A DNA stretch of 64,000 bases. Origin: Verrucomicrobiota bacterium. GTDB lineage: Bacteria; Verrucomicrobiota; Verrucomicrobiia; Chthoniobacterales; Terrimicrobiaceae. This document shows, in pieces, positions 29,184 through 63,335 of the stretch. Location of the stretch: contig JAGWWS010000012.1 in the NCBI GenBank assembly GCA_018970255.1, positions 1 to 64,000 of the forward strand, in the 5' to 3' direction. Under the pieces are notes generated by a model. It did no database searches. It was not told where the DNA came from and saw only the letters and a list, made by a program, of their open reading frames with translations. Every line of letters starts with the position of its first letter. Position 1 is the stretch's first letter. Position numbers and translations under genes: made by a program.

Positions 29184-30746
29184 GTGGAAAAACCGATACC
29201 CAACCGCGCAACAACCCCCGAGGCGCTCCGCGAAAAGGAGGACGCAGTCGAACGCGACCTGCGAGGATTGCGCCAGTGGCGCTTGCGGGCCGAGGGGGCC
29301 ATTGAATCCTCGGGCCACATCCTCCGCGAGTGGGACACGGCGCGCGATGAATCGCTTTATTGCGGCGCGATGGAATCGATCCTCGGCATCTACCCGCACG
29401 AGATGTCGGGCACTTTCGAAACCTGGGCCGCCCTGATCCACCCGGACGACCGCCCCGGCTACCGCCGCGAGATCCAGCGCGTCCTCACCGAGGGTGGACC
29501 CTTCCAGGTCGAATACCGCGCCAAGCGCCGCAACGGCCAATACATCCAACTCCTCGAGCGAGGGTATTTCATCAGCCAACTCCAGGGCACCACCCCCGTG
29601 CTTTCATCGATGATCACGGATGTCTCGGAACTCCGCGAACTCGAATCCCGCTTGCGCCAAGCCCAGCGCGTCGAAGCCTTCAGTCAGCTCACGGGCGGCG
29701 TTGCACACGATTTCAACAACATGCTTTCCGTGGTCGTGGGCTACACCCAAATCCTGCTCGAGGACATTCCTGCGGATGACGACCGGCGGACATTTCTCGC
29801 GGAGATCGAGAAAGCCGCCATGCGAGCCTCGTCGCTCACGAACCAACTCCTCGCCTTCACCAAGCCGGCCACCGTCCGTCGCGCCTCGGTTCAAGCAAAC
29901 GATGTTCTCAATGATGTCTCGAAAATGCTGCGCCGACTCCTCGGGGAGCAAATCACCCTGGAACTCAAAACCGGCGACCAAATCTGGCCGATCCAAGTGG
30001 ATCGCGCTCAACTCGAACAAGTGCTCATCAACCTCGCCGCCGCCTCGCGCGAGTCGATGCCCGGCGGCGGATCACTGACACTCTCCACCTCGAATGAAAC
30101 CATCGCGGAGGCTCGCAGTGTCGGCCACGAGCAACTGCCGCCCGGCCGCTATGTCTGCGTTCGAATTCTCCTCGAACCCGAATCCGGCCGTGCGGGTTCC
30201 AAGGCATTTGAAAAAAAACGTGGTGTCTCGGCTGCCGCAGACACGATCGAAAAGAACGATGGCGTCTTTGCCGTCCTGCCTGCGGATGATGGCAGGATCA
30301 TGATCGAGCTCTATTTGCCGAGCGCTGCCGAGTCCGAGAAACCCAAGCTTAAAAAGCCAGCTCCCAGCACGGCTCCAAAATCTGCAAAGATTCTTTTGGT
30401 GGAAGACGACACCGCCATGCGCCAACTGGCGAAAATCGTTCTCTCCCGTCTTGGCCATCAGGTGATCGAGGCGGTCGATGGCGAAAACGCACTGGAGATT
30501 CTCAGCGGGCCCCAACCTCTTCACCCCGATCTGATCATCACCGACATCGTCATGCCGCGAATGGGTGGAATCGAATTGGCAAAAAAGGTTTCGAATTTGT
30601 TTCCCGACACTCCGGTGCTCCTGGCGACCGGATATCCGGAGCAAGAGGCCGTGGCGACCTCCACGGCACCGCAATTCGAGTTGCTGAGAAAGCCCTTCGC
30701 CGTGGGCGACCTGATTTCGAAGGTCGGCGCGTTGCTCGACTCCTGA
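29184..30746 (+). CDS. Hybrid sensor kinase with PAS, H-box, degenerate ATPase and receiver domain
   Basis: 520 residues from GTG 29184. Order: coiled N-terminus; PAS_3-like domain (residues about 50-148, with MSGTFETWAALIHPDD); dimerisation/H-box QLTGGVAHDFNNMLSVVVGY with His175; ATPase-like region (240-380); receiver 402-520 with Asp454 in IITDIVMPRMGG and Lys in LLRKPF. The N-box reads NLAAASRESMPGGG, where active kinases have NLAVNARDAM, so the metal-binding Asn is Ala287. The G1 (DxGxGM), F and G2 (GxGLGL) boxes cannot be found; only the final strand IMIELYLP fits. The phospho-acceptor His and receiver Asp remain. It likely relays or accepts phosphate rather than autophosphorylating. Convergent with the next gene (3 bases apart). 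Confidence 0.82.
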   Translation: MEKPIPNRATTPEALREKEDAVERDLRGLRQWRLRAEGAIESSGHILREWDTARDESLYCGAMESILGIYPHEMSGTFETWAALIHPDDRPGYRREIQRVLTEGGPFQVEYRAKRRNGQYIQLLERGYFISQLQGTTPVLSSMITDVSELRELESRLRQAQRVEAFSQLTGGVAHDFNNMLSVVVGYTQILLEDIPADDDRRTFLAEIEKAAMRASSLTNQLLAFTKPATVRRASVQANDVLNDVSKMLRRLLGEQITLELKTGDQIWPIQVDRAQLEQVLINLAAASRESMPGGGSLTLSTSNETIAEARSVGHEQLPPGRYVCVRILLEPESGRAGSKAFEKKRGVSAAADTIEKNDGVFAVLPADDGRIMIELYLPSAAESEKPKLKKPAPSTAPKSAKILLVEDDTAMRQLAKIVLSRLGHQVIEAVDGENALEILSGPQPLHPDLIITDIVMPRMGGIELAKKVSNLFPDTPVLLATGYPEQEAVATSTAPQFELLRKPFAVGDLISKVGALLDS

Positions 30747-30749
30747 GCC

Positions 30750-32009
30750 TCAGCAGTAAACGAGCAACTGGCGCGGCAGGGCGGAACTCAGGTTGAAATT
30801 CCGGATTTTCTTAATCGAGTTTTCGTCGAGGTGATATCCCTCGGCAACGATCAGCACCCCGGTCGGGCTGTAAATTCCGCTCGCGAGTTGCATACCCACA
30901 TCGAGTTCATCGACCATCACTTCACGCACGAGGCGCGGGAGCGGCGAGGCTTGGGCACAGCGCAGGAAGAGCCTTACGGCATCGGGATCGAAAACGGTTC
31001 CGCTTTGCTCGAGAATCCGGTCGACCGCCTGTTCGTGCGGCAACCCGCAGGTGACGTAGTAAACCACCACCGCCAGGCAGCGTGCGGTCCAAGGAATCAT
31101 TTCGCCCGCCAAGCCGTCCGGGAAGCCCTTTCCGTCGAATCTCTCGTGGTGCGCGCGGATCGTGTCGCCGACCGGTTTCAGCAAATCCACGAACGAGGCG
31201 AGCGTTTGCCCATGGATCGTATGGTTAAGGAAAACCGTCTTCAGCTCCGGCGCCATGTCCTCAGAGTTCGATTGCACCACATTCATAAACCCGGTGGGCA
31301 CTGCCGAAAGGCCGATGTCGTAAAGTCGCGCACTCACATCGAGCACGTGCTTTTGTTCGTCGTTGAAATAATGCGTATCCGCCATCGTCGCGCAGATCTT
31401 CGTAGCGGCATCGGCCTGTTCGCCGAGGAGCGGATTGAAAGTGGTGAGGATGCGGTGGCAGAGCTCGAGTGAGCGGCTGAAGTTTGTCTTTAGAGCATCG
31501 TGGGAGATGTCGATCTCGCGCTTGCTGGCCTCGAGCATTTTGACCTGCTTCTCGAGCTGCGCGTTGGCATCGGAGAGCCGCTGATTGAGGTCTTTCGAGG
31601 TTTTTTCCAAAGCGCTGTTCGACTCGATGAGCTCGAACCGCTGAACCGCATTGTGCAAGGTCGCGACCATCTCTGCCGAGATCCATGGCTTTGTGACAAA
31701 GCGGAAAATTTCTCCGCTGTTCACCGCGGCAGTCACCACATCGAGCGACTTGATGCCAGTGATGAGGATGCGGGATGCGGCTGGCTGAATTTGCGCGAAG
31801 CGGCTGAGAAGTTCGGCCCCCATCATTTCCGGCATGTTGTGGTCGGCGATGACCACGGCGAATTTCTTCTCCACCGCGAGCTTGAGCGCCTCCTCGGGAC
31901 TCGCGGTGCCGAAGAATTGATACCCGGCTCGAGTGACCAGATCTTCGAGGACCTTGAGGATCAAAGGATCGTCATCGATGGAGAGAATGGCTCGGGAGGA
32001 TGGGTTCAT
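30750..32009 (-). CDS. Response regulator with receiver and degenerate HD-GYP output domain
   Basis: 419 residues. Receiver domain in residues 1-125 with IDDDP, phospho-acceptor Asp56 in VVIADHNMPEMMG and Lys107 in FVTKPW. A coiled coil spans 125-180. The C-terminal HD-GYP-like domain keeps HHERFDGKGFPDGL (HHExxDGxGYP, Tyr to Phe), but the HD pair reads YD in ARLYDIGLSAVP. One metal ligand of the c-di-GMP phosphodiesterase site is thus missing. It may bind c-di-GMP or signal through protein contacts instead of hydrolysing it; this is inference. It starts 6 bases downstream of the stop of the small kinase-like gene. Confidence 0.85.
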   Translation of the reverse strand: MNPSSRAILSIDDDPLILKVLEDLVTRAGYQFFGTASPEEALKLAVEKKFAVVIADHNMPEMMGAELLSRFAQIQPAASRILITGIKSLDVVTAAVNSGEIFRFVTKPWISAEMVATLHNAVQRFELIESNSALEKTSKDLNQRLSDANAQLEKQVKMLEASKREIDISHDALKTNFSRSLELCHRILTTFNPLLGEQADAATKICATMADTHYFNDEQKHVLDVSARLYDIGLSAVPTGFMNVVQSNSEDMAPELKTVFLNHTIHGQTLASFVDLLKPVGDTIRAHHERFDGKGFPDGLAGEMIPWTARCLAVVVYYVTCGLPHEQAVDRILEQSGTVFDPDAVRLFLRCAQASPLPRLVREVMVDELDVGMQLASGIYSPTGVLIVAEGYHLDENSIKKIRNFNLSSALPRQLLVYC

Positions 32010-32015
32010 AAGTGG

Positions 32016-32771
32016 CTAGGCTTGGAGGTCGTAGATCGGAAGCACAAGCATAATTTTGCTGCTGCTACGATCGGCGCCAGGGCAAATCGCAACGCGACCA
32101 CCGAATGCCGCGCAGATCACCTCCACGTTCTTGAGCGAGATGTCGCCCGGAGTGGCGCAGAAAAGAAACTCGTCGATTTCCTCGGTGGTTTCCGCAAGGC
32201 ACGGGATTGAGATTTCAACGGCAGCAAATCCGCCTTTTTCACCAGTCGCCTTCGAGACTTCTTCGGGACCGAGGATCGCCAGCCGGATGTCGTTTTTTCC
32301 AGCGGGGAACAACCCGCGAAGCCGCGCTGCCATGGTGAGGAGCGCCACACGAAAGGGAAACTCCGCAGTGCGGACATGAATCGTTTGGGAGCTGGGAGTG
32401 AGGTTGATTTTCGAAGTTTTCGGGAAAACGATCCTCATCAAATCCAACTGACCGGCGACCAGCGCCTCGAGATCGTGGTAGCTGACTTCCCTCTCGGCCG
32501 AATTCAGCTGAATCTGCGTGGCTCGCCCGAGGATCTCCTTGATGCGTTCGACGCCGCGGTTGATTTCCTTGATCAACTCGATGGCGTGGCTCGAGGGGTC
32601 GAGAGCTTCCTGGCAACCCTCCAGGTTGAAGTAGATTCCAGTGAGAATGTTGTTCACCTCATGAATCAGTCCCGGCGAGAGTTCCGAATTCAACTCATTC
32701 GAGAGGCGCTTAAGAAGGAGTTGGGACTCGTCAATCTCCTCGCGGGAGGGATGGTTGGTTGAGGACGCCAT
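32016..32771 (-). CDS. Histidine-kinase-like protein with H-box but no recognisable ATP-binding motifs
   Basis: 251 residues from ATG 32771. ELSPGLIHEVNNILTGIYFN, with His37, is an H-box of the type found in sensor kinases. The region after it has the layout of a GHKL ATPase domain, with the last strand KIMLVLPIYD. The N-box position (FRVALLTMAARLRG) has no Asn, and G1, F and G2 boxes are absent. So it probably serves as a phosphotransfer or scaffold protein for the adjacent receiver/HD-GYP protein. Calling it a kinase would overstate it. The open frame extends to 32837, but ATG 32771 (MASSTNHPSREE) gives a cleaner soluble start. Confidence 0.65.
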   Translation of the reverse strand: MASSTNHPSREEIDESQLLLKRLSNELNSELSPGLIHEVNNILTGIYFNLEGCQEALDPSSHAIELIKEINRGVERIKEILGRATQIQLNSAEREVSYHDLEALVAGQLDLMRIVFPKTSKINLTPSSQTIHVRTAEFPFRVALLTMAARLRGLFPAGKNDIRLAILGPEEVSKATGEKGGFAAVEISIPCLAETTEEIDEFLFCATPGDISLKNVEVICAAFGGRVAICPGADRSSSKIMLVLPIYDLQA

Positions 32772-32886: not shown

Positions 32887-33651
32887 TCACCGGTTGGTCA
32901 CCGGAGGAGGTGGCGGGGGCGCCAGCGAAGCGAAGGCTTCGTGCGCCACGAACATCGCGAAGAGTCTCGGAGATTGGAGAACGATTTGATTCCCGCTCGC
33001 GTAGTCCCGGGTTTGTCCCTTCGGAATCGTCGGGCTGATGTAGCCCATCTTCAGGCTGGAGTCGGCGAATTGCGAAGCGAGCGCCGCCACATCGGGCTCG
33101 GCCGCATCCAAGACCCCGTCGGCCATCCACAGGATTTCCATATTCGAAAGGTCGACGATTTTCGCACGAACACCGATCGCCATTGGCCGGTAAGGACGGA
33201 AGAGCGTGAAATCAATAAACATCACCGCATTCGCGGCATACTTTTGGCGCAGGGCAGTGACCAAATGCTGTGGCAAGACCTCGGTGGACGAAATCGACTC
33301 CCGGTTGATCAACTTCATCATTTCCGGCCTGCTGACTTGCACGATCTCGTATTTGACGACCTTCGAAAGCTCTCCGCGGAAGACCCCATCCATGTCGCGC
33401 TGGGTTTCATTGACCGGCCTGACCGCATCCACAGGCAAAATCGCCAATCTCCGCATCCCCGCGGGCCAGTTGATGGCAGATGGCGGGGCTTGGGGAACCT
33501 GCTGAACTTGTTTTATGCGCCCCGATTTGTCGTGCACGGCGCGCTCGGTTTGATTCGAGCAGGCGCTAACGAGAATACAGGATGCGAAAAAAACGCCTCG
33601 GGTGAGATGGGCAAATCGGGTCGACATACACCGATTCGCAGCAATTTTCAT
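32887..33651 (-). CDS. Lipoprotein with CsgG/LpoB-like periplasmic domain
   Basis: 254 residues from ATG 33651, or 246 from ATG 33627 (MSTRFAHL). The signal peptide ends in a lipobox, SCILVSACSNQ. The soluble part begins AGMRRLAILPVDAV and continues with YEIVQVSRPEMMKLI, LRQKYAANAVMFIDFTLFRPYRP and AKIVDLSNMEILWMADGVLDA. This order of strands resembles CsgG/LpoB/FlgT-like lipoproteins, which sense or assemble envelope structures. The match is structural guesswork from pattern. It ends in a proline run (LAPPPPPPVTNR). It is divergent from the next lipoprotein gene by 114 bases, where nothing else was recognised. Confidence 0.55.
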   Translation of the reverse strand: MKIAANRCMSTRFAHLTRGVFFASCILVSACSNQTERAVHDKSGRIKQVQQVPQAPPSAINWPAGMRRLAILPVDAVRPVNETQRDMDGVFRGELSKVVKYEIVQVSRPEMMKLINRESISSTEVLPQHLVTALRQKYAANAVMFIDFTLFRPYRPMAIGVRAKIVDLSNMEILWMADGVLDAAEPDVAALASQFADSSLKMGYISPTIPKGQTRDYASGNQIVLQSPRLFAMFVAHEAFASLAPPPPPPVTNR

Positions 33652-33765: not shown

Positions 33766-34257
33766 ATGATTCTCAACAAAACCTCATTTCCCCCCACCTC
33801 GAACCGCACCATGATTCCGAAACTTTTTTCGACTTTTATCATCTTAAGCATCTCCCTGGGAGGCGCTTCCTGCTCATCCGCACCTAAAAAACCCACTCCT
33901 ATTGCTTCTCCGAACCTCTCCCAACGTCTGCCAAAACCCGCTCCGATGCGTGTAGCCAAAGACGATGCCAACCGCCGAAACGCCCCGAAACTCCCGAACA
34001 TCACGGTGAATATCCCCACCGAAAGCGAAGAGGAGGCCGCACGGATCGCAGCCGAGACTCCCGCCGATACCAAAGAAACCATCAGCCAGACCGATCCGAA
34101 GTTTATCAACAACGAGCAGCCACAGGACTTCTTCCAAGGCGTTGGCGACGCCCCGGCCGGCCAAGCCCTCTTCGGCCCGGCCTTCGACTCGATGTTTACC
34201 CCCCCCACCCCGGCGAACCAACCCGTCAGCAGCACCTCCTACGAACAACTCCCGTGA
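33766..34257 (+). CDS. Small lipoprotein, unknown function
   Basis: 163 residues. ATG 33766 has a good Shine-Dalgarno sequence (AGGA at 33757-33760, 5 bases upstream), rare in this window, and it decides the start against the open frame from 33748. The hydrophobic segment IPKLFSTFIILSISLGGASC ends in a lipobox Cys. The mature part is proline- and charge-rich (TESEEEAARIAAETPAD) without a recognisable domain and is probably disordered. The stop overlaps the GTG of the TPR gene by 4 bases, so both are translationally coupled and presumably work together. Confidence 0.6.
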   Translation: MILNKTSFPPTSNRTMIPKLFSTFIILSISLGGASCSSAPKKPTPIASPNLSQRLPKPAPMRVAKDDANRRNAPKLPNITVNIPTESEEEAARIAAETPADTKETISQTDPKFINNEQPQDFFQGVGDAPAGQALFGPAFDSMFTPPTPANQPVSSTSYEQLP

Positions 34258-35723
34258 AATTGATATCCCACCCTGCCCTCCTTGCCACATTGCTCGCGGC
34301 CACGAGCGTCTTTGCCGAAATTTCCTCTCCCCCTCCCCTCACGGAAAACAACACAGCTACTCGCAGCTCCGGTTACTCGGAACAACCCGCCCTACCACCG
34401 GGCATCGAACTTGATGCTCTCGAGATCGAGCTTGAAGACAGCCCCGACGCGGCGCGCAACGACGGCCTCGACACCGGTGAAATCGAATCCGAGGAGCTCG
34501 ACTTCAAAATTCAGCAGGCTCTCGAGACCGGCGACACCGCCGAGGCCGAGCGTCTCCTTACCCGCCTGCTTGGCGTAAGGGCCTCGCCGGCCATGAAGCG
34601 CGACGCCGTCCTGAAAATGGCGCGCAAATTTGATGAGAAAAACGAGGACGCCAAGGCCCTCGTCCTCTACGAACAGTTCCTCAAACTTTACCCCACTGAT
34701 CCCGAGGCCCCGGCCGTCCTCATGAGCTCCGGCCGCATCTATCGAGAGACCGGAGCGTTCACCGCCGCGCTGAACAAATTCTACAACGTCCTCTACTCCG
34801 AGCTTCAGGTGAAAACCGGCGAAAAAAAAGAGGACACCTCCCTCCGCGCAAAAATGGAAATCGCCCACACCCACTTCGCGAAGGGCGACTACGAAACCGC
34901 CGCGCAGCTCTACGACCGCATTCAACTCATCGACATGACGCAGACCGAGGCCAGCGAAGTTGCCTTCCGCCTCGCGTTCATTTCCTACCTGAACAAGGAC
35001 TACCCGAAAGCACTCACCCGCGCCGAAACCTTCCTCGCCACTTACCCCTCCAGCCCCCTCGCCCCCGAGGCGCAATACATCAACATCCAGTCCTTACGCG
35101 GACTCGGCCGCAACGATGAAGCCATGCGCGAAACGCTCGAACTGCTCCGTTCCGGCAAGGAATACGGCAAGAAAAAGCCAGCCGTCTGGGTTTATTGGCA
35201 GCGCAAAACAGGTAACGAAATCGCAAACGACCTCTACGAATCCGGCGATGTCCTCGGCGCCCACGCGGTCTTTTTAAAACTCGCGGAAATCGAGGACGAC
35301 CCGAGCTACCGCGGCGCCGCCGTTTATCAGATCGGCCTTTGCTTCGAGCGCCTCCGCCACCTCGACCGCGCGCGGGATGCCTACAAATGGATCCTCGACA
35401 AAATTCCCGCCACTCCGCCCGCGGAATCCGGCCAATTCTACGGCAGCAACCTCACCATGCTCCGCGAGATGGCCCAGTGGCGTCTCGACAACCTCACCTG
35501 GCTCGAGAAGACCGAGAAAGAAATGTTCCCACTCCTCGACAAGCCCGTCCCGATGCCGGACACCCAGCCTGTGTTCATGCGCGCGGACGCGGCCAAGGCC
35601 GGAGCCACGATTCAGTCCACTGACGCCGCAATGAAGAAGGAGTTGCCGGAGGCCCAGAAACCTGCAGCTCCAGCCGCCACGCCTGCAGCGGCTCCACAAC
35701 CCGCCGCTACTCCGGCGCGCTGA
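34254..35723 (+). CDS. Secreted TPR protein (BamD/tol-pal-like repeats)
   Basis: 489 residues from GTG 34254. It has a signal peptide (HPALLATLLAATSVFA), an acidic region, then at least seven TPR-like repeats between residues about 85 and 400. Examples are ALVLYEQFLKLYPTDPEAPA, HTHFAKGDYETAAQLYDRI and ALTRAETFLATYPSSPLAPE. The spacing and the YP-x-S-xxxP pattern resemble BamD/YbgF-type periplasmic TPR proteins. The C-terminus is a low-complexity Ala/Pro tail (PAATPAAAPQPAATPAR). Coupled to the upstream small lipoprotein. Likely an envelope scaffold; specific partners unknown. Confidence 0.7.
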   Translation: MKLISHPALLATLLAATSVFAEISSPPPLTENNTATRSSGYSEQPALPPGIELDALEIELEDSPDAARNDGLDTGEIESEELDFKIQQALETGDTAEAERLLTRLLGVRASPAMKRDAVLKMARKFDEKNEDAKALVLYEQFLKLYPTDPEAPAVLMSSGRIYRETGAFTAALNKFYNVLYSELQVKTGEKKEDTSLRAKMEIAHTHFAKGDYETAAQLYDRIQLIDMTQTEASEVAFRLAFISYLNKDYPKALTRAETFLATYPSSPLAPEAQYINIQSLRGLGRNDEAMRETLELLRSGKEYGKKKPAVWVYWQRKTGNEIANDLYESGDVLGAHAVFLKLAEIEDDPSYRGAAVYQIGLCFERLRHLDRARDAYKWILDKIPATPPAESGQFYGSNLTMLREMAQWRLDNLTWLEKTEKEMFPLLDKPVPMPDTQPVFMRADAAKAGATIQSTDAAMKKELPEAQKPAAPAATPAAAPQPAATPAR

Positions 35724-61054: not shown

Positions 61055-61110
61055 TTGCACGAAAGTGAAAAAAATCCTGCAAGAATCTCCCTTTTCCGCG
61101 TTTGCACTAT

Positions 61111-62658
61111 GTGAAGGCAAAGTCACCCACGCAATTGTCTGATTCGCCCATCCATAACGCCCTACCGGCTGTCAATCATCGGTTCGAAGCCCTCTCCGAG
61201 TGCTCGCCCGACATCATCCTGGAAATCACAGCCGATGGAGTCATCTCCTACGCCAACCCCCAGTCCATCAATATGCTTAGCGTTCCCCCCGATACCATTA
61301 TTGATAAAAACCCCTCTGAAGTCGGTCTCCCTGCAAGTTTTTGCGAGTTTTTAAAAACACTCACCATCTCCACCCTCCGCACCGGGCACACCATGGAGCG
61401 CGACTACGAGTTCATCACCCCCGGCGGCATCCGCATCTTCAATATCCGCACAGCTCCGGTCTCCATGCACGGCCGCGACCCCCTCTCCATCATCGCGAGC
61501 ATCCGCGACCGCACGGACCGCCACCGCCGCGAGGCGGAACTCGAGGCCGCCAGCCAGCGCCTCATGCTCCATGCGAGCAATTCGCCGCTCGCAGTCGTGG
61601 AGTTCGACCGAGACGGGCGCTGCACCACCTGGAACCACCGCGCCGAGGAACTCTTCGGCCCGCGCCCCAATTCCGTCCTTTGGATGTGGAGCGCCGTCAT
61701 CCACCCCGACGACCGCCCGCGCTTTGAGGAGGTTTACCAGCGCCTCCACCGGGGCTCCGAGGCCAGCGCGTTCGCCAGCGCCCGCTTCACCGGGCGCGAC
61801 GGCTCCACCTTTTACGGCGAGTGGCACCTCTCCTGCCTGTTCGACCCCGACGGCCGCCCCGCTTCCGTCCTTTGCTTCGTCAACGACGCCACCGCCCGCG
61901 TGAAGGCGGAGACCGCGCTGCAGCAGTCGAAGGAGCAGCTCGAGGAAACCGTCGCGAACCGCACCTCCCAGCTCCGCAAGACCACCGAGCGCCTCCAAAA
62001 CGAAATCGAAGTGCGCCGCCGCCTCGAGCGCGACCTCATCGAAATCAGCGAGCGCGAGCACCGCCGCATCGGCCAGGACCTCCACGACGGCGTCTGCCAG
62101 GAACTCGCCGGCATCCGTTTTTCCATCGAGGCGATGTCGAAGTCCCGCGCTCCCGCGAAGGCGCTCTCGAAGCAACTCGCCGAACTCGCCGCCGCCGCCA
62201 GCCGCGCCGTCCACCACACCCGCCTCATCTCCCGCGGCCTCGCCCCGCTCGCGCTGGAATCCGTCGAAATTTCCGACGCCCTCGAGGAACTCGCCGCCAA
62301 TTCCTCCACGCTTTTCCAAACCGAATGCTCCTTCACCGCGAAGGGCGCCATCCCGAAGCTCGGCCTCGAGCGCTCCACGAACCTCTACCGCATCGCGCAG
62401 GAGTGCATCCAGAATGCCATCAAGCACGGCGGCGCCACCCGCATCCGCATCCTCCTCGATTGCTCGGGCTCGAAAGGCATCCTCGCCGTCACCGACAACG
62501 GCAGCGGCCTCCCCGAATCCGCCGCGGCGAACGGCGCCCACGCCGGCATGGGCCTCAAAATCATGGGCCACCGCGCCGAAATCCTCCGCGGCACCGTCTC
62601 CTTCCTCTCGCCGAAGGAAGGCGGGCTCTGCGTCCACTGCGTCTTTGAGAAACCATGA
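61111..62658 (+). CDS. PAS-containing NarL-type (HisKA_3) sensor histidine kinase
   Basis: 515 residues from GTG 61111 (a TTG at 61102 is possible). Two PAS domains (residues about 20-140 and 150-275, the second with SVLWMWSAVIHPDDRPRFEE) are followed by a coiled coil and HisKA_3 with phospho-acceptor His in HRRIGQDLHDGVCQELAGI. The ATPase is intact: N-box IAQECIQNAIKHGGA, G1 VTDNGSGLP, G2 GMGLKIMGHRAE. No membrane segment, so a cytoplasmic sensor. It overlaps the response regulator gene by 4 bases, so they form a two-component pair. The start is uncertain because no Shine-Dalgarno is seen. Confidence 0.88.
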   Translation: MKAKSPTQLSDSPIHNALPAVNHRFEALSECSPDIILEITADGVISYANPQSINMLSVPPDTIIDKNPSEVGLPASFCEFLKTLTISTLRTGHTMERDYEFITPGGIRIFNIRTAPVSMHGRDPLSIIASIRDRTDRHRREAELEAASQRLMLHASNSPLAVVEFDRDGRCTTWNHRAEELFGPRPNSVLWMWSAVIHPDDRPRFEEVYQRLHRGSEASAFASARFTGRDGSTFYGEWHLSCLFDPDGRPASVLCFVNDATARVKAETALQQSKEQLEETVANRTSQLRKTTERLQNEIEVRRRLERDLIEISEREHRRIGQDLHDGVCQELAGIRFSIEAMSKSRAPAKALSKQLAELAAAASRAVHHTRLISRGLAPLALESVEISDALEELAANSSTLFQTECSFTAKGAIPKLGLERSTNLYRIAQECIQNAIKHGGATRIRILLDCSGSKGILAVTDNGSGLPESAAANGAHAGMGLKIMGHRAEILRGTVSFLSPKEGGLCVHCVFEKP

Positions 62659-63335
62659 AAAAAGCCCGCAAGCCCCGCCACCGCATCCTCCTTGTCGATG
62701 ACCACCCCATGACCCGCATGGGCCTGAAAATGCTCATCGCCTGCGAGCCCGACCTCGAAGTCTGCGGCGAGGCCGAGTCCGCCGCCGCCGGGCTCGACGC
62801 CTGCATCCGCCTCTCGCCCTCGCTCGTCCTCAGCGATGTCAGCCTCCCCGGCCGCAGCGGGTTTGAACTCGTCCAGGACCTCGCCGCCCGCTGCCCCGGC
62901 ACCCCGGTCCTCATCGTCTCGATGCACCCGGAGGCCGCCTACGCCCGCCGCGCCCTCGAAATCGGCGCCCGCGGCTATGTCATGAAAAGCGAGGATGGCG
63001 GCAGCCTCCTCTCCGCCATCCGCACCGTCCTCTCCGGCCGCATCCATGTGAGCGAATCCGTCGCCGGCCGCCTCCTGGAATTCATCGGCCCCAGGAAAAA
63101 CGGCCACCACACCGGCGTCGAGGCCCTCACCCCGCGCGAATTCGAGGTCTTCAAGCTCCTCGGCGAGGGGCTGCCCACCCGGCTGGTCGCGAGGCGCCTG
63201 AACATGAGCCCGAAGACCGTCGATACCCACTGCTCCCGCATCAAGGAGAAGATGGACGCCCCGACCATGCCGGCCCTCGTGGCCTCCGCCGCCCAATGGC
63301 TCGCGCTGCAAAATGTGGCGCCCGCGGGCGCATGA
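62655..63335 (+). CDS. LuxR/NarL-type response regulator
   Basis: 226 residues. Receiver domain with ILLVDDHPMTRMGLKML, phospho-acceptor Asp in VLSDVSLPGRSGFE, Ser/Lys in VLIVSMHPE and GYVMKSEDG. HTH of the LuxR type is LTPREFEVFKLLGEGLPTRL and SPKTVDTHCSRIKEKM. It is the cognate partner of the preceding kinase (ATGA overlap). The downstream CheB-like gene starts 16 bases on, so all three probably belong to one module. Confidence 0.92.
   Translation: MKKARKPRHRILLVDDHPMTRMGLKMLIACEPDLEVCGEAESAAAGLDACIRLSPSLVLSDVSLPGRSGFELVQDLAARCPGTPVLIVSMHPEAAYARRALEIGARGYVMKSEDGGSLLSAIRTVLSGRIHVSESVAGRLLEFIGPRKNGHHTGVEALTPREFEVFKLLGEGLPTRLVARRLNMSPKTVDTHCSRIKEKMDAPTMPALVASAAQWLALQNVAPAGA

Follow-up and report, generated by a model that had tools for sequence, protein, structure and literature searches.

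Three degenerate histidine kinases, ChpT, Spo0B and PhyT, are known to serve as phosphotransferases (PMC3433190, PMC5898713). ChpT makes no use of ATP and bound none in crystals (PMC3433190), PhyT transfers phosphate with a degenerate ATPase domain (PMC5898713), and in Ruegeria the CckA-ChpT-CtrA relay controls flagella (PMC3692519). DivL, a PAS-containing kinase fold with no autokinase activity, works through receiver binding (PMC4211667), and among HD-GYP proteins both Burkholderia NosR, with a degenerate motif (PMC12570481), and the inactive Bd1817 (PMC4159591) have been described. Here we analyse a three-gene locus with parts of these kinds in the window, the whole 64,000-nucleotide stretch of DNA studied, which is contig C58 of a 2.56 Mb assembly (93% complete) from the order Chthoniobacterales of the Verrucomicrobiota. 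Three open frames adjoin in it, encoding the hybrid pseudokinase P0001 (29184–30746, + strand), the receiver/HD-GYP-like protein P0002 (30750–32009, − strand) and the small histidine phosphotransferase-like protein P0003 (32016–32771, − strand). P0003 and P0002 lie on the same strand with 6 bp between them, and P0001 converges on the pair, the stops being 3 bp apart, so the three genes do not form one transcription unit.

We interpret the locus as a flagellum-associated phosphorelay-type module of the Chthoniobacterales that has lost ATP- and cyclic di-GMP-directed catalysis and kept its phosphoryl chemistry, a reading to which we give a probability of roughly 0.55. The kinds of parts are known and the combination is new; a literature search, incomplete in coverage, found no description of such flagellar regulation in Verrucomicrobiota. 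The first-pass annotation of this DNA had proposed a system, relay or scaffold, that receives its phosphate from some other kinase; the flagellar link was absent from it. The module resembles the alphaproteobacterial CckA-ChpT-CtrA/CpdR system in its CckA-like P0001, a receiver close to CpdR, a putative ChpT-like transferase and the flagellar link, but differs in that P0001 lacks an ATPase and P0002 has a pseudo-HD-GYP domain in the place of a DNA-binding one; the analysis identified no partner corresponding to CtrA. If this reading is true, a flagellum-tied ChpT-like relay arose separately from the alphaproteobacterial one, a dead cyclic di-GMP phosphodiesterase fold came to be encoded in flagellar operons of genomes mostly without cyclic di-GMP synthesis, and the roles of pseudo-HD-GYP domains and ATP-less hybrid kinases become directly testable.

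Retained phospho-acceptors and lost ATP motifs in P0001 and P0003

P0001 (520 aa, GTG start) is a CckA-like hybrid composed of a PAS domain, a DHp domain (29661–29879), a pseudo-ATPase region (29880–30323) and a C-terminal receiver (30384–30740), with Pfam matches to PAS_3, HisKA and Response_reg and none to HATPase_c. As the first-pass annotation had read, its translation keeps the acceptor motif H175-DFNN (His175 codon 29706–29708), has Ala287 (codon 30042–30044) for the N-box Asn in the region LINLAAASRESM, and lacks the G1, F and G2 boxes, neither DxGxG nor GxGLG being found. The receiver is intact, with D408, D454 (codon 30543–30545) and K503 all invariant in the orthologue alignment, as are His175 and the whole HDFNN motif. 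The nearest NCBIfam model is CckA, with a score of 241 bits against a cut-off of 1000, and the receiver is close to CpdR, also below the curated cut-off; the intact ATPase domain required of a CckA hybrid kinase is missing.

These losses are common to the P0001 family. All 17 orthologues that reach the ATPase region, comprising 15 copies from the genus and two from another family (G026 and G036), are without the N-box Asn, G1 and G2, and none has the intact boxes that would make the losses peculiar to the window's genome. The next-best 12 matches in the order keep G1 in every case and visibly keep the N-box Asn in 11, the search pattern having caught no N box in the twelfth (L067). In the tree the degenerate hybrids group as a single clade (support 100/100) that extends to the other family.

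P0003 (251 aa) retains H37-EVNNILTG (His37 codon 32661–32663) without N or G boxes, again as first described, and matches only HisKA in Pfam, below threshold. Its model, with a predicted local distance difference test score (pLDDT) of 83, combines a helical hairpin with an alpha/beta ATPase-like sandwich; the best match in the PDB is the DHp-CA core of CckA, and the nearest sequence match is likewise the CckA DHp. By model and alignment P0003 has the plan of ChpT, a DHp hairpin bearing the acceptor His and, after it, an ATPase-like fold devoid of ATP motifs, and shares this small architecture with Spo0B and PhyT as well. Unlike ChpT it belongs to another phylum, is nearest to the CckA DHp, and has no match to the ChpT family PF10090 at E values up to 1. 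A scan of 58 genomes, for which Caulobacter was the positive control, gave no PF10090 match at the P0003 position either. Since membership in the ChpT family was rejected by this test, P0003 at most works like ChpT.

Orthologues of P0003 are known from the genus and from G046, G026, G036, G313 and G359; the His is kept in every lineage and G boxes are absent. The motif reads HEVNN or HDVNN within the genus, and outside it the residue after the His is Lys (G046, G313), Arg (G036), Gln (G026) or Glu (G359). A non-acidic residue in most of these would suit a transferase better than a kinase. The homologue in G359 (L293:3690–4469) has an N-box-like Asn (GLTLNIRDAL) without G1 or G2, and is possibly an intermediate of degeneration.

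A hidden ATP site in P0001 or P0003 was considered and rejected on sequence grounds: the models fold as kinase cores, yet no orthologue carries the N-box, G1 and G2 residues. The predicted structure of P0001 matches many kinase cores, DivL and RetS among them, with low global confidence (predicted template modelling score, pTM, 0.36). Constraint on both proteins tracks phosphoryl chemistry, the phosphoryl-handling parts being the most conserved. Mean pairwise identity within the genus is 90% in the His-box of P0001, 61% in its receiver and 34% in the would-be G1-F-G2 segment, and 77% in the His helix of P0003 as against 45% in its pseudo-ATPase domain.

This pattern bears on whether P0001 and P0003 move phosphate. 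Like DivL, a proven pseudokinase sensor (PMC4211667), or RetS, they could bind a phosphorylated receiver or an active kinase and alter its activity with no phosphoryl transfer of their own, which would fit the PAS domain and conserved DHp that P0001 retains as well as the structural matches to DivL and RetS. However, DivL carries Tyr at the acceptor position and has no C-terminal receiver, whereas P0001 has both the His and a receiver. In P0001 and P0003 the His is invariant and marks the site of strongest conservation, and the receivers of P0001 and P0002 both keep their Asp. We consider such docking unlikely, though it deserves to be taken seriously.

Distinctly less probable is a phosphatase module, in which P0001 and the genus P0003 would mainly dephosphorylate a P0002 receiver whose phosphate comes from a different kinase or from a small donor. 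The phosphatase activity of kinases needs no autophosphorylation, and the H-[ED]-x-x-N signature is kept in the invariant HDFNN of P0001 and in the P0003 motifs of the genus. The acidic residue after the His is nevertheless lost in P0003 of G046, G313, G036 and G026, and PhyT, initially taken for a phosphatase, turned out to be a transferase (PMC5898713).

Loss of metal ligands in the HD-GYP-like domain of P0002

P0002 (419 aa) matches Response_reg and HD_5 in Pfam and is predicted to be a catalytically dead response regulator. Its receiver (31641–31994) has all the expected residues, with the acidic pair D12 and D13, the acceptor D56 (codon 31842–31844), T84 and K107, while its pseudo-HD-GYP domain (30960–31463) retains a GYP-like motif and has Y230-D231 (Tyr230 codon 31320–31322) where HD is expected. 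Both Asp56 and the YD had been pointed out in the first-pass annotation, which took YD as the sign of lost catalysis; the predicted loss stands, with YD overweighted. In PmGH the conserved metal ligands are E185, H189, H221, D222, H250, H276, H277 and D305, plus K225, and H189, H221 and K225 are each required for activity (PMC4159591). P0002 has equivalents of D222, H250, H276 and H277 and lacks those of H189, H221, D305 and K225, and so falls short of the ligand set of an HD-GYP phosphodiesterase.

Across the aligned family the K225 equivalent is Leu in all members, H189 is retained only in G398, and at the D305 position, Val316 in P0002, G313 alone has Asp. The HD pair survives in G046, G313, G314, G329, G398 and G339, with YD in the remaining members. 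Because further metal ligands, like the K225 equivalent, have disappeared from almost the whole family, YD is a separate, patchy and secondary change rather than the key loss, and HD-GYP catalysis is predicted to be lost throughout the family. In distant relatives from other phyla (Nitrospirae, Oryzomonas, Desulfuromonadaceae, Desulfurivibrio) HD is intact, as are the other ligands. Within the genus the pairwise identity of the pseudo-HD-GYP domain averages 85%, and the receiver Asp is kept in nearly all P0002 orthologues that have a receiver. One genome, G316, carries two copies of the P0002 gene (L291 and L299).

The nearest NCBIfam model to P0002 is NosR (NF053512), at 296 bits against a cut-off of 400, which places it outside that family. 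It shares the receiver and HD-GYP architecture of NosR but occurs in flagellar operons and in a genus mostly without GGDEF domains: the window's genome gave no match to one, nor did 11 of the 16 genomes of the genus, including one rated 100% complete, although gaps in the metagenome-assembled genomes could hide one. That P0002 is a working or binding-competent HD-GYP phosphodiesterase despite YD is very improbable. The four remaining ligand equivalents and the GYP-like motif speak for it, and degenerate HD-GYP proteins such as NosR may affect cyclic di-GMP indirectly (PMC12570481); against it stand the loss of three residues each essential in PmGH, and of D305 too (PMC4159591), and the GGDEF domains missing from most of the genus.

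Of 15 genomes from the same genus, 14 hold orthologues of P0001, P0002 and P0003 side by side, and these show the same losses. The fifteenth, G004, has only the first half of P0001, stopping 19 bases before the contig end, and the rest may simply be missing from the assembly. Identity to the window copies within the genus is 42–52% for P0003, 51–56% for P0001 and 77–84% for P0002, and pairwise ratios of nonsynonymous to synonymous substitution rates (dN/dS) among close relatives are 0.12–0.22, 0.04–0.12 and 0.02–0.04, respectively. The earlier view that the motif losses are not random decay is thus strongly supported by losses shared among orthologues and by purifying selection. Ongoing decay in the window's genome, for which nothing but the motif loss itself speaks, has next to no probability given the orthologues, intact frames, dN/dS of 0.02–0.22 and conserved synteny, and decay of a single genome was rejected on the orthologues and dN/dS.

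Association with flagellar genes

Among 58 related genomes, 18 have flagellin above cut-off and 18 have P0002; 17 genomes have both, and the two mismatches are fragmented assemblies. A naive Fisher test gives p = 2e-12 for this co-occurrence, the genomes being non-independent. The association is seen separately in at least three lineages, namely the genus, family f2 and genus g22 of family f6, and other genera of families f1 and f6 have neither flagellin nor P0002. Across the order, 35 of the 213 genomes surveyed carry P0002, which often lies within a flagellar operon or next to one.

In G005, from the window's own genus, the genes flgK-flgL-fliW-csrA-lipoprotein-P0003-P0002 follow one another on one strand. 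The lipoprotein-P0003-P0002 block of G046 adjoins csrA-fliW-flgL-flgK-flgN-flgI-flgH-flgG (Pfam), and by similarity G313 has the same layout. P0002 stands between fliD or fliS and flgB-flgC-fliE-fliF in G318 and G240, where Pfam checks covered FliS of G240 and, for G318, two rod proteins together with FliD, FliE and FliF, and in G359 it is followed by flgG, flgH, flgI, flgN, flgK and flgL. Several further loci have FliD- or FliS-like neighbours by reading only, annotation having covered part of the loci.

Proposed phosphate source and route

In G026 and G036, two genomes of another family, the P0003-P0002 pair directly follows an intact Rec-HisKA-HATPase gene, with an N-terminal receiver (Rec) (L108:4111–5256 and L109:4025–5182), which would be a natural phosphate source for the pair. 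This kinase has the same Rec-DHp-CA order as LvrB-type Rec-controlled kinases (PMC13269768). A search of the window's genome and genus turned up no orthologue of it, the matches in the genus being weak (E 1e-13, at best 3e-18). The window's genome does hold an orphan PAS-PAS-kinase-receiver hybrid with intact boxes on contig C22, which we would guess is possibly the ATP-using donor here. A relay or scaffold supplied by another kinase, as first proposed, is plausible because the phosphoryl-handling parts are the most conserved and because an intact Rec-kinase stands upstream in two genomes.

We infer a route from a kinase or its receiver to P0003 and on to the receiver of P0002. P0003 would act like ChpT, Spo0B or PhyT, its His37 shuttling phosphoryl groups between receivers, and P0002 would be the response regulator whose receiver takes the phosphoryl group. 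The dead, strongly conserved HD-GYP-like domain of P0002 would then bind a partner in flagellar assembly, export or the motor, with no hydrolysis of cyclic di-GMP and flagellar control as the putative output. P0001 would be a CckA-derived hybrid whose His175 and Asp454 are loaded and unloaded only by exchange with other members of the module, forming a second, PAS-controlled node that is probably a phosphate sink, reverse transferase or phosphatase. The energy of ATP would come from another kinase, the upstream Rec-kinase in the two relatives and possibly the C22 hybrid here.

Several observations weigh against this phosphorelay-type module. The copy in the window adjoins recN rather than flagellar genes, although its genome encodes flagellin and has a flagellar cluster, the latter on contig C50. 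Orthologues of P0001 turned up in the genus and family f2 and nowhere else. The donor in the window's genome is a guess. Many P0002-bearing flagellar operons are without P0003, P0002 of G320 (L296) has Asn at the phospho-acceptor position, and G339 (L301) and G341 match P0002 only outside the receiver. As these last three genomes indicate, the pseudo-HD-GYP domain is able to function where the relay is absent; together with the operons lacking P0003, they mean that it has a job of its own, phosphorylation being an added control in some lineages.

A broader and more tentative extension of the phosphorelay reading, which we think possible but would not favour, is an order-wide flagellar checkpoint, in which a dead HD-GYP regulator in the core flagellar operon is set without cyclic di-GMP by an ATP-less two-kinase relay. 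The relay would consist of two separately degenerated kinases, the ChpT analogue and the CckA-derived hybrid run in reverse.

Upstream of P0003 lies a putative lipoprotein gene (32887–33651, − strand), the product of which has no match in Pfam or NCBIfam. It is kept beside P0003 and P0002, and throughout the order it accompanies P0002 in flagellar operons, making it a candidate for an uncharacterised flagellar lipoprotein. Relatives of a TPR protein encoded at 34254–35723 (+ strand) adjoin the same module in G046, G313, G398 and G339. A separate, ordinary two-component pair, a PAS-PAS-HisKA_3 kinase followed by a LuxR-type regulator, is encoded at 61102–63335 (+ strand) of the window.

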